Shown one piece after another: positions 27,744 to 32,192 of a stretch of DNA of 36,321 nucleotides. Made by a program: the position numbers and the translations under genes. Origin of the DNA: Anaerolineae bacterium (GTDB lineage: Bacteria; Chloroflexota; Anaerolineae; JAADDB01). A model generated the notes under the pieces. The model had not been told where the DNA came from and ran no database searches. It saw nothing but the letters and a program-made list of their open reading frames with translations. The stretch's first letter is position 1. Each line of letters opens with the position of its first letter. The stretch spans positions 1 through 36,321 of the forward strand of contig WFQU01000010.1 of NCBI GenBank assembly GCA_015486845.1, written 5' to 3'.

Positions 27744-27772
27744 TTGACAAAATTAGGACGGTATGTTATAAG
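27744..27772 (+). promoter_or_regulatory. strong promoter of the leader RNA before the Nudix gene
   Basis: TTGACA (27744-27749), 17 bases, then TATAAG (27767-27772), itself preceded by TGT as an extended -10. This is among the best promoter matches in the window. The start should be near 27779, well clear of the YfhO stop at 27671. Confidence 0.75.
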
Positions 27773-27778
27773 TGATTA

Positions 27779-27941
27779 TCTTTTTGTGGAGAAGAAATAG
27801 ATCGTGGGCCATCACATTATCTTGATTGTCAAGAAGCAGAGCAGGAAGCATAAGCCGAGCCGCTAAGGTCCGGAGTTTGGTACTTGCTCATTGGCGAAAG
27901 GATGCCGTTGCCGACTTCCAGACCTGGAGGTCGGCTTTTTT
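27779..27941 (+). ncRNA. terminator-ended leader or small RNA upstream of the Nudix gene
   Basis: A consensus promoter and an intrinsic terminator bracket about 163 bases with no reading frame of note. The transcript contains a hairpin TCTTGA/TCAAGA (27820-27825, 27829-27834). AGGTCCGGAG (27866-27875) can pair, nine of ten positions, with 27916-27925, which is the 5' arm and loop of the terminator. The two structures exclude each other, as in an attenuator or riboswitch. No known riboswitch class was recognised. It could instead be a free-standing small RNA. The Nudix start codon is 16 bases past the T-run. Confidence 0.55.
27910..27941 (+). terminator. intrinsic terminator between leader and Nudix gene
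   Basis: GCCGACTTCCA (27910-27920) pairs with TGGAGGTCGGC (27925-27935), eleven pairs with one G-U and a four-base loop, followed by six T (27936-27941). The ribosome-binding site GAGAGGGG follows at once. Confidence 0.88.
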
Positions 27942-27956
27942 CGTGAGAGGGGCAAA

Positions 27957-28487
27957 ATGAAGCGCATAGGATGTATGACCGTTATTCTCAGCGAGGATAA
28001 GCGGCGTGTGTTATTAATTAAACGGGACGACTTTCGCATCTGGGTGCCGCCGGGCGGTAGTATCGACCCGGGCGAGCAGCCGGAAGCTTGTGCAGTACGC
28101 GAGGCACGTGAGGAAAGTGGTTACGATGTGGTTTTAGACCGGTTAGTGGGACGGTTCCATTGGCAGAATGCACCGGACGGGCCGATGACATCGTATGTTT
28201 ATGCGGCGCACGTCGTAGGCGGTGAGGCCATCGTGCGTGGGCCGGAAACTCGGGAAGTCCGATGGTTTCCAGTGGACCGGTTGCCCCGGCGCATGCTGTC
28301 TCATACTAAACGGCGGGTGGCAGTCGCTTTGACGAAACAGGATACTCCTGTTGATGTCAAAGAGCGTATGCCGACTTGGCAAGCGTGGTTATTGCGCTTA
28401 CTGGTTGTGCTGCGTGATCAGTACAACAAATATTTTCGGAAATCACTGTATGCCGACCGTATGCGCAATTTAGGGCGCGGTGGGTGA
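27957..28487 (+). CDS. Nudix hydrolase
   Basis: The 176-residue protein hydrolyses a nucleoside diphosphate linked to another moiety; the substrate is unknown. A complete Nudix box runs from about residue 34 to 56: G-x5-E-x7-REAREESGY, with all metal-binding glutamates. The fold starts after residue 3 with the usual first strand, and about 40 extra residues at the C-terminus are basic. A reading to 27891 would run through the terminator, so the ATG at 27957 is chosen; GAGAGGGG precedes it. The position directly after a terminator with a competing pairing suggests that expression depends on read-through. Confidence 0.93.
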   Translation: MKRIGCMTVILSEDKRRVLLIKRDDFRIWVPPGGSIDPGEQPEACAVREAREESGYDVVLDRLVGRFHWQNAPDGPMTSYVYAAHVVGGEAIVRGPETREVRWFPVDRLPRRMLSHTKRRVAVALTKQDTPVDVKERMPTWQAWLLRLLVVLRDQYNKYFRKSLYADRMRNLGRGG

Positions 28488-28859
28488 ATTAGGTGGGTGA
28501 AGCTTGTGGAGAACCCAAATGGGCCGGCGCCAGCTACCAAGCGCCTATACCCCAAAAGGGGGGCATGTCACTGAGGGCGTTTTACCTCTCCTGACCTCCT
28601 GCAAAAGGGCTTTGGCTTCGGCTGCTTTTGGGCTATCACTGGCTCTCGTCTCGTCGCAAACTTATTGTTATCCTGTTGTCAACGAGCGCATAGAGCGTGT
28701 TGTCGCCGTAAGTTGGTATACGCTGAATAGTAGTCTATAGTATGAACCGGGTTTTATAACAGGAATCTTCGTACTGCTGGGATGATATGTTTGAGATCAA
28801 CGTTTATCAGCGTGCATCGGCGTTGGTCAGCGTGCTATATCTTAGAGGAGGTTGTGAAC
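28488..28859 (+). other. gap with promoter and repeat piece before lysW
   Basis: No gene is supported; a 78-codon frame at 28504-28740 has no binding site or domain. The stretch holds the promoter at 28713-28741 and, at about 28796-28836, a degraded copy of the ATCAGCGTGCATCNGCGTT repeat seen upstream of herA. AGAGGAGG just before 28860 serves lysW. Confidence 0.55.
28713..28741 (+). promoter_or_regulatory. probable promoter of lysWXY
   Basis: TTGGTA (28713-28718), 17 bases, TATAGT (28736-28741). The predicted start near 28748 gives a leader of about 112 bases that includes the repeat piece at 28796-28836. Confidence 0.55.
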
Positions 28860-29033
28860 ATGGCAGCTTTGACGGTGGATTGCCCGGAATGTGGGGCTGA
28901 GATTGATTTGACCGACTTGATTGTGGGAGAAATTGTTGTTTGCCCTGATTGTGGCGTAGAGCTGGAAGTGATGAGCTTAACGCCACCGGTGGTGGAATTG
29001 GCCCCGGAAGAGGAAGAAGACTGGGGAGAATAG
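28860..29033 (+). CDS. lysW: amino-group carrier protein LysW
   Basis: LysW is the small carrier whose C-terminal glutamate is joined to the amino group of 2-aminoadipate (or glutamate), protecting it during reduction. This 57-residue protein has the zinc ribbon Cys8, Cys11, Cys28, Cys31 (CPECG and CPDCG), an acidic tail and the exact family ending EDWGE with the attachment glutamate as last residue. The ATG at 28860 follows AGAGGAGG; longer readings would add a non-conserved stretch. It heads the cluster and is about 80 bases from lysX. Confidence 0.97.
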
Positions 29034-29112: not shown

Positions 29113-29985
29113 ATGCGAGTTGGTGTTTTGCTTTCGCGTGTTCGGAAAGAGGAGAAACTGATTTTCGACCGGCTGCAGCGCCGGGGTGTGCCTTTCGACA
29201 CGATTGACGACCGGCAGATAGTTTTTGACTTGCAAGGCAACGGTTTTGGGAAATATGACGTGGTTTTGGAGCGGTGTATCAATCACAGCAGGGCGCTTTA
29301 CGCAGTGCACATTCTGAATGACTGGGGTGTGCCTACCGTGAACAATGCAGAAGTAGCTGAAGTTTGCGGGAACAAGCTGCTCACAAGCAGTTCTTTGATT
29401 CGCCACGGCGTGCCGACGCCGCGAACGAAAATCGCGTTCACGCCAGATAGTGCGTTGCAAGCCATTGAGGCGATGGGCTATCCGGTAGTCTTGAAGCCAG
29501 CCGTGGGTTCTTGGGGACGGCTGTTGAGCAAAATCAATGATCGCGATGCCGCCGAGGCTGTCTTAGAGCACAAACAGATTTTGGGCAGCTATCATCATTC
29601 CATTTTCTATATTCAGGAATATATCCGCAAGCCGATGCGGGACATTCGCGCTTTCGTCGTTGGCAATGAGACCATCGCGGCCATTTATCGCCATTCTGAA
29701 CATTGGATCACTAACACCGCCCGAGGTGGTTCTGCTTCCGTCTGTCAGATCACGCCGGAACTAAACGATCTTTGTGTGCGAGCGGCCCGGGCTGTGGGCG
29801 GCGGCGTGGTGGCTATCGACGTGCTGGAGGACCCGGAGCGAGGGCTGTTGGTGAACGAAGTGAACTACACCATGGAATTTCGCAACAGCATCGAGCCGAC
29901 TGGCGTCGATATTCCGGGGCGCATTGTCGATTTTGCCCTGCGAGTGGCTGCTGATGGCTGGGAGAAAGCTAATGGCTGGGGATAA
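29113..29985 (+). CDS. lysX: LysW-amino acid ligase (RimK-like ATP-grasp)
   Basis: LysX uses ATP to join the LysW C-terminus to the amino group of 2-aminoadipate; related ArgX uses glutamate, and some homologues use both. The 290-residue protein has the ATP-grasp layout: [17 protein letters not shown] (about 122-138), [17 protein letters not shown], and the metal-binding [12 protein letters not shown] near the C-terminus. The ATG at 29113 has GGGAGGA upstream; an earlier in-frame codon at 29068 adds non-conserved residues. Its end overlaps lysY by 14 bases. Whether it prefers aminoadipate or glutamate cannot be settled by eye. Confidence 0.95.
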
Positions 29986-31039
29986 GCCGAAAATTCGCGT
30001 CGGCATCGTCGGGGCTTCCGGCTACACTGGCGGAGAATTGCTGCGCTTGTTGCTGTGGCATCCCCGGGTGGAAGTGGTGCAGGCCACCAGCGAGCGCCAA
30101 AGCGGAAAATTCGTTTATGCCGCCCACCCCAACCTGCGTGGGCTGACGAAACTGAAATTCAGTTCAGCACGCCAATTACAGCCGGCAGACCTGCTCTTTT
30201 TGGCGCTGCCCCATGGCAGCGCCCAGCAGCGTATCGACGAATTCGCTGCTGTCGCGGAGCGCATCATTGATCTGAGCGCCGACTTCCGGCTGCGCGACGC
30301 ATCGACTTATGCCAAATGGTACGGCCATGAACACGCCGCGCCGGCCTGGTTGGACCGTTTCGTCTACGGCCTGCCGGAGCTTTATCGGGAACAGATCGCC
30401 GGGGCACGCTACGTCAGCGGCGTGGGCTGCAATGCCACGGCGACGACGTTGGCTGTTTGGCCACTCTTCCGAGCCGGGCTGGTACAACCCGGTCGTGACC
30501 TTATTGTGGAAGTCAAAGTCGGCTCCAGCGAGGCCGGTGCAACCCCCAGTGCCGGTTCGCACCACCCGGAACGGAGCCATGTGGTGCGCTCTTACGCGCC
30601 GGTGGGCCACCGGCACACCGCCGAGGTGATGCAAAACCTGGCCTTGGCCGGGGAGGTACCGCCGGTGCATCTCTCGGTGACCGCTGTGGAAATGGTACGA
30701 GGCGCTTTGGCCACCGCACATCTTTTCTTGCGGCCTGAGGTGGAGGGTGAGAAAGAAATATGGGCGGCTTACCGGCAAGCGTACCGGGATGAGCCTTTCG
30801 TGCGCATCGTTAAAGAGCGCCGCGGCATTTACCGTTTGCCGGAGCCAAAGATTCTGGCCGGCAGCAATTTTGCCGACGTCGGCTTTGCTTTCGATCCGGA
30901 AAGCCGCCGCTTGGTGGCTATAGCTGCCATCGACAACCTGATGAAAGGCGCCGCCGGCACGGCAGTGCAATGCATGAACGTGATGTACGGCTGGGACGAG
31001 CGCACCGGACTGCGCTTTCCCGGCTTGCATCCGATCTGA
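29972..31039 (+). CDS. lysY: LysW-aminoadipyl/glutamyl-phosphate reductase
   Basis: LysY is an ArgC homologue that reduces the LysW-bound acyl phosphate to the semialdehyde with NADPH. The 355-residue protein has the nucleotide loop GASGYTG (14-20), the catalytic cysteine 153 in SGVGCNATA, and His in the KVGSSEAG...HHPERS segment typical of LysY/ArgC. The start is the ATG at 29972, preceded by GGGAGAAA and overlapping the lysX end, so translation is probably coupled. Two earlier in-frame ATGs are less well placed. The next gene of the pathway, lysZ, follows only after 346 bases. Confidence 0.95.
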
Positions 31040-31385: not shown

Positions 31386-32192
31386 ATGATCGTTATCAAA
31401 ATCGGCGGCGGCAAAGCTTTGAATCATGCCGCTATCGTCCGGGATATCGCACAACTCCGGAAGACGGGGCCACAATTGGTCGTGGTGCATGGCGGTGCGG
31501 CGTGGACTAACGAGATCGCCGCACAATTAGGTCACCCGCCGCAATTTGTTACTTCCGTTTCTGGCTACACCAGCCGGCGCACCGACCGCCGCACCCTGGA
31601 GATTTTCGAAATGGTCTATTGTGGCATGATGAACAAGCGGTTCGTGGAGCTTTTCCAGGCTGCCGGGGTCAACGCAGTGGGGCTCAGCGGCCTGGATGGC
31701 CGGCTGTGGGAGGGGAAACGCAAAGACCGCTTGCGCATTGTGCGGGAAGACGGCCGGCGCATGGTTTTGCGAGACGATTACACTGGCCGGGTGGAAAAAG
31801 TCAACGCCGGCTTGCTGCGCTCGCTTTTGAACGCCGGCTATCTGCCTGTGCTGACCCCGCCGGCGCTTTCCTACGCGGGGGAAGCCATCAACGTGGACGG
31901 CGACCGGGCCGCGGCGCAAACGGCGATCGCTTTGGCCGCCGACACGCTGCTCATCCTTAGCGACGTGCCCGGCTTGCTGCGCGCTTTCCCGGACGAAAGC
32001 AGCTTGATCCGCCATATCCCGGCCGCTCAGGTAGACGATTACATGACCTTTGCCGGGGGACGCATGAAGAAAAAAGTAATGGGCGCCGCCGAAGCCGTGC
32101 AAGCCGGCGTGCGCCGGGTAATCTTCGCCGATGGCCGCGGGGAAACCCCTGTGCAAGATGCCATAGATGGGGCCGGTACGGTTATTGACTGA
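31386..32192 (+). CDS. lysZ: LysW-aminoadipate/glutamate kinase
   Basis: LysZ, an ArgB-type amino acid kinase, phosphorylates the side-chain carboxylate of the LysW-bound amino acid before LysY reduces it. The 268-residue protein starts with the kinase strand VIKIGGGK (3-10), then VVHGGAAW (33-40), the substrate-binding NVDGDRAAAQTA segment, LSDVPGLL, and GGRMKKKVMGA near the end. Replacement of the usual ArgB glycine-rich wording by HGGAAWTN is typical of LysZ. The ATG at 31386 is preceded by GAGGTAACC. The GIY-YIG gene starts one base after its stop. Confidence 0.95.
   Translation: MIVIKIGGGKALNHAAIVRDIAQLRKTGPQLVVVHGGAAWTNEIAAQLGHPPQFVTSVSGYTSRRTDRRTLEIFEMVYCGMMNKRFVELFQAAGVNAVGLSGLDGRLWEGKRKDRLRIVREDGRRMVLRDDYTGRVEKVNAGLLRSLLNAGYLPVLTPPALSYAGEAINVDGDRAAAQTAIALAADTLLILSDVPGLLRAFPDESSLIRHIPAAQVDDYMTFAGGRMKKKVMGAAEAVQAGVRRVIFADGRGETPVQDAIDGAGTVID

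Follow-up and report, generated by a model that had tools for sequence, protein, structure and literature searches.

The leader upstream of the Nudix hydrolase gene in the 36,321-nucleotide stretch of Anaerolineae DNA analyzed here (the window) is very probably a transcription attenuator in which a translating ribosome senses the supply of charged lysyl-tRNA. We found its parts, their conservation in related genomes, the match between its codons and the genes downstream, and the pairing of its strands. The parts lie as follows.

27744 to 27772, plus strand: promoter, recognized by sequence, with TTGACA (27744-27749), a 17-nt spacer and TATAAG (27767-27772)
27788 to 27791, plus strand: possible Shine-Dalgarno sequence GGAG, 12 nt 5' of the GTG, a weak candidate
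27804 to 27866, plus strand: leader peptide ORF of 20 codons, GTG to TAA, encoding VGHHIILIVKKQSRKHKPSR and then the stop, for which G003, G068, G036 and many more have homologous leaders
27831 to 27854, plus strand: control codons AAG AAG CAG AGC AGG AAG CAT AAG, four Lys and one Arg among eight
27839 to 27889, plus strand: hairpin 1:2, in which 27839-27845 pairs with 27883-27889 and inner pairs are added (-20.3 kcal/mol)
27866 to 27882, plus strand: antiterminator strand (region 2), with its core AGGTCCGGAG at 27866-27875, overlapping the leader stop codon
27909 to 27925, plus strand: region 3, the terminator 5' arm and loop, which is the partner of region 2 (helix 2:3, -20.1 kcal/mol)
27910 to 27941, plus strand: intrinsic terminator, hairpin 3:4 (hairpin 27910-27935, T run 27936-27941; -19.1 kcal/mol)

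An earlier, sequence-only reading of this DNA had described an extended -10 promoter, an alternative pairing, a terminator and a gene in that order, and each element was located as claimed. A TG at 27764-27765 provides the extended -10 (TGtTATAAG), the transcript is predicted to start at about 27779, and the T run of the terminator ends 15 nt 5' of the Nudix ATG at 27957. Our consensus promoter scan passed over this promoter because it requires T as the last base of the -10 element; the TTGACA-17-TATAAG arrangement is kept in the homologous leader of genome G003 (L003). What the sequence-only reading had overlooked is the ORF inside the leader and the lysW-lysX-lysY-lysZ genes downstream.

The leader ORF begins with a GTG preceded by a modest Shine-Dalgarno sequence, and its stop codon (TAA, 27864-27866) overlaps the antiterminator strand at 27866-27875. 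A tiny ORF, GTG GAG AAG AAA TAG (27786-27800), was also considered as the leader and was rejected, being distant from the switch and having no counterpart in the relatives read. Taken alone, the window leader contains four Lys codons compared to 0.72 in shuffles (p=0.005). Among 110 lysW loci taken from the class, to which the window and G003 were added, 40 were testable, that is, had a strong terminator shortly 5' of the gene and a leader of sufficient length. For leader ORFs whose end lies just 5' of the terminator, Lys was counted over the final 20 codons. In these 40 loci 105 Lys codons were observed upstream of lysW while 21 were expected from dinucleotide shuffles, the largest of 200 null sums was 35, and lysine was the most enriched of all 20 amino acids (z 16.5). 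The short ORF holds several codons for lysine, the amino acid that the operon most likely makes.

Helices 1:2, 2:3 and 3:4 are mutually exclusive and of near-equal stability. Hairpin 1:2 overlaps the control codons and conceals the antiterminator strand in the ribosome-free leader, while the terminator, a hairpin of 11 pairs with a 4-nt loop followed by six T, stands between the leader ORF and the first gene. The previously noted pairing of 27866-27875 with 27916-27925 at nine of ten positions was confirmed, with one C.A mismatch and one G.U pair. Alone, this match is not significant, as 12.5% of dinucleotide-shuffled leaders attain it, and it is convincing only because of the cross-species comparison. 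For 26 leaders, duplex energies were computed between the stop-codon region and the native terminator, and between the stop-codon region and the terminators of all the other leaders. Own-species 2:3 pairing was far better than cross-species pairing (z -7.7, 0 of 20,000 permutations), and the signal was maximal at the stop codon and weakened when the strand was slid away from it. The paired strands change together between leaders (CACTGGTCTGG/CCAGACCAGTG, CCTCCGGTCTGG/CCAGACCGGAGG and CCCCTGGTCAGG/CCCGGCCAGGGG), the CCAGACC motif of region 3 is conserved in relatives, and the terminator stem covaries in alignment A1. Covariation, which the sequence-only reading had proposed as a check, is thus found among homologous leaders of the class both in the terminator stem and between region 2 and the terminator 5' arm.

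In the proposed mechanism, RNA polymerase would initiate at about 27779 and a ribosome would translate the leader ORF from the GTG at 27804. When lysine is scarce, the ribosome would stall at the Lys codons in 27831-27854 and disrupt hairpin 1:2, releasing 27866-27882 to pair with 27909-27925; with helix 2:3 formed, no terminator would arise and the polymerase would continue into the Nudix gene and, probably, into lysW-lysX-lysY-lysZ. When lysine is plentiful, the ribosome would arrive at the TAA at 27864-27866 and mask the antiterminator strand, so that hairpin 3:4 would form and transcription would stop at about 27941. If the leader is not translated, 1:2 would form and 3:4 would again be left free. 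Leader translation, stalling, the switching itself and read-through into lysW are predictions from the arrangement of these parts.

Folding under constraints was consistent with this scheme. With the 3' terminator arm absent and a stall simulated at codon 27834 or 27849, the minimum-energy fold was 2:3; simulated stalls at 27831 and 27843 gave folds other than 2:3. A ribosome placed at the stop codon left 2:3 unable to form, and with no ribosome 1:2 formed. The coordinates and these folds agree that region 1 shares sequence with the control codons and that region 2 would be masked by a ribosome on the stop codon. The modeled folds support the switch, short of proof.

Homologous leaders show the same design. 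A DNA similarity search with the leader in 100 related genomes gave only two matches, and it was these that revealed the leader ORF and the link to lysW. In G003, of the same family, the promoter, leader, terminator and Nudix gene follow in matching order, with a leader ending WSNKPKPNR and stop and a contig that stops within the Nudix gene; in G068, of another family, a leader ending FKKQSKKQKPDRRVW and stop lies directly upstream of lysW. A covariance model built from 16 leaders recovered the window leader at E 1e-14 and, within the class, had matches in 201 of 395 genomes, as well as in 49 of 400 genomes drawn from the phylum at E <= 1e-4, some of them outside the class. The element lies directly 5' of lysW, lysX or homocitrate synthase in related genomes and stands immediately ahead of lysine genes across many of the class's families; it is absent from two further lysW loci within the window's own family (G001 and G004). 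The model also found a second copy in the window's genome, outside the training set (C143:35197-35311, E 8.5e-5). This copy encodes the leader peptide INKKKQSKPIPVARSG / MSRQIVPIILINKKKQSKPIPVARSG and stop, with AGGAG preceding its ATG and a terminator present, and it lies just 5' of a homocitrate synthase-like gene, the first lysine gene, whose best match is TIGR02146 at a score below the TIGR02146 cut-off.

Downstream of the window attenuator we identified the following genes.

27957 to 28487, plus strand: Nudix hydrolase, the first gene 3' of the attenuator (PF00293, E 5e-23)
28860 to 29033, plus strand: lysW, amino-group carrier protein (TIGR01206, above cut-off)
29113 to 29985, plus strand: lysX, ligase acting on LysW (TIGR02144, 361 bits, cut-off 276)
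29972 to 31039, plus strand: lysY, argC-type semialdehyde dehydrogenase (TIGR01850, above cut-off), its LysY role suggested by its neighbors
31386 to 32192, plus strand: lysZ, [LysW]-aminoadipate kinase (NF010659, 419 bits, cut-off 223)

With lysW, lysX, lysY and lysZ together, these genes have the make-up of a LysW-dependent (alpha-aminoadipate) lysine cluster. Because the window's genome encodes a classical ArgJ and no dapA was found in it above cut-off, the cluster most likely makes lysine. A 372-nt non-coding gap (28488-28859) separates the Nudix stop from the lysW start and contains a weak promoter-like site at 28713-28741, so read-through to lysW is probable rather than certain; the covariance model found no second attenuator between the two genes in the window. 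Such a gap is unusual within an operon and could be the scar of a Nudix insertion.

The sequence-only reading had taken the switch to control the Nudix hydrolase. This holds in so far as the Nudix gene is the first one read, but at the other Nudix loci examined the element was absent throughout, and the gene is therefore probably a passenger of the operon, a first gene specific to its lineage. One could propose instead that the Nudix enzyme, for which no NCBIfam equivalog scored at cut-off, is a functional member of the lysine regulon and that the attenuator was retained for it. The order of leader and then Nudix does recur in G000 and G003, where both are conserved (75% identity over 55 aa). 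However, the pair occurs in only two genomes of one family and elsewhere the lysine genes follow the leader directly, which makes this proposal unlikely.

Across Chloroflexota, the codons of the leader follow the gene downstream. Among model hits whose downstream gene was identified, lysine codons outnumbered arginine codons in 29 of 34 leaders upstream of homocitrate synthase or lysX and in 0 of 23 upstream of argC or argG (Fisher p = 2e-11, where p-values are indicative only as the genomes are related). At most of these loci a motif served to classify the downstream gene, and for each gene type some examples were checked. In genomes from outside the class, Lys leaders were found before a homoaconitase-like gene and before homocitrate synthase (identities by eye), and some leaders before proS are rich in proline (INPPCPVEPSDKP.. 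and IRPPSLPAPEHRT followed by the stop). These data suggest that a single RNA chassis has probably spread among the Chloroflexota, acquiring new targets as its control codons were swapped between Lys, Arg and Pro. The parts of this chassis are likely the PD..SG codons with their stop, the GGTCTGG / CCAGACC switch and the terminator. We consider its likely targets to be lysW, lysX, homocitrate synthase and homoaconitase for lysine, argC and argG for arginine, and proS for proline.

Individual versions of the chassis were seen at many loci. Arg-codon versions lie before argC or argG at L206-L210, L223, L234, L236, L240, L245, L246, L253, L257, L260 and L261. Pro-codon versions lie before proS (prolyl-tRNA synthetase) at L254 and L279, and before a short metallophosphoesterase-like gene, identified by eye, at L249, L259, L264, L268 and L280. 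Tandem attenuator pairs, mostly ahead of one lysine operon, occur at L211 (426-708), L212, L213, L214, L215, L216, L217 and L218; often a Lys-type leader is followed by a second leader of Lys or Arg type with a terminator, and this could be a double gate. At L262 a leader ending ATPQPGPAPDLWSG and stop lies upstream of a possible LOG-family (lysine decarboxylase-like) gene. In family f10 (L047, L058, L097 and L102), the leaders before lysW are rich in Arg (RNSRRARAKRS..) and their inner hairpin differs, which suggests that this LysW cluster responds to arginine.

Could the window leader itself be signaled by arginine, or by lysine and arginine together, and not by lysine alone? Arg codons stand at 27843 and 27861, two within the last eight codons of the ORF, and arginine could therefore contribute to the signal; Arg-type homologs of the leader are found before argC and argG, and LysW is able to serve arginine in some organisms. 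On the other hand, four Lys codons stand against these two, only one of which falls among the control codons, the genome's second copy reads NKKKQSK before homocitrate synthase, and ArgJ is present. An arginine or mixed signal is accordingly quite improbable.

Two further explanations do without a leader peptide. The sequence-only reading had favored an attenuator or a new riboswitch, with a plain small RNA as its main alternative. A metabolite-binding riboswitch, for lysine or another ligand, that acts on transcription and controls the Nudix gene would fit the order of elements, from promoter through leader and alternative pairing to terminator, and the leader does fold better than its shuffles (z -3.1), although this is largely due to the terminator (z -1.2 without it). 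As that reading had said, no known riboswitch class is recognizable: Rfam gave no family at gathering score in the window, the sole match in a lax scan of the leader was a chance match of 11.6 bits, and across 20 related loci Rfam found, apart from the leader, only one FMN riboswitch and two tRNAs. (The FMN riboswitch, L049 817-983 on the minus strand, lies near the lysine attenuator of genome G036.) The leader alignment showed no aptamer-like conserved fold besides 1:2; conservation centers on an in-frame Lys-rich ORF and three alternating helices, and the open frame exchanges Lys, Arg and Pro codons with the downstream gene, which a ligand-binding RNA would have no need to do. The attenuator part of the earlier claim, with its alternative pairing, thus stands, while the riboswitch part is very improbable. 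A free-standing small RNA, whose terminator lies before the Nudix gene by chance, would account for the promoter and the strong terminator, but it leaves unexplained why the element immediately precedes lysine genes in many families of the class and why its codon content and 2:3 pairing are maintained. We rejected it on the codon evidence as scarcely credible; the terminated leader product may accumulate, yet the design is cis-acting.

A lysine-sensing leader-peptide attenuator has relatives among known systems. One was reportedly described by Tsubouchi et al. in 2005 for the LysW-type lysine cluster of Thermus thermophilus; it, too, is reported to have a Lys-codon leader peptide and a terminator before lysine genes. 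The window, in contrast, comes from another phylum, shares its chassis with Arg and Pro versions and has a Nudix gene first. Control codons, helices 1:2, 2:3 and 3:4, and a ribosome at the stop codon that masks region 2 make up the attenuator scheme (PMC1183508) and are common to the window and the trp, his, leu and thr leaders of Proteobacteria, for which Rfam has leader families. The window differs from these in amino acid and phylum and is without an Rfam match, and its homologous RNAs in Chloroflexota serve several amino acids. Like the lysine riboswitch (L-box, RF00168) it would control lysine genes by termination, but it is without the aptamer and the Rfam scan was negative. Like the T-box it would sense aminoacylation with a single chassis of changeable specificity; however, the T-box binds tRNA and needs no translation, whereas the specificity of the window leader lies in translated codons, and here too the Rfam scan was negative. 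According to a 2010 survey, leader-peptide systems other than the ermC leader were known only from Proteobacteria and Actinobacteria (PMC2965389), and the literature that we searched, in which subscription papers are thinly covered, held no report of leader-peptide attenuation in Chloroflexota. The mechanism is therefore a known one, and what is new is the phylum and the apparent use of one RNA chassis across Lys, Arg and Pro versions.

These comparisons are evidence that classical leader-peptide attenuation is common beyond the groups in which it is usually described, and from them a regulon of lysine, arginine and proline genes can be predicted for a phylum that is largely uncultured. Protein sequence often does not resolve whether the product of a LysW cluster is lysine or arginine, and on this point the leader codons give a direct hint. 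If the shared chassis is real, it would amount to a T-box counterpart programmed by codons, and its changeable codons would make the evolution of attenuator specificity testable.
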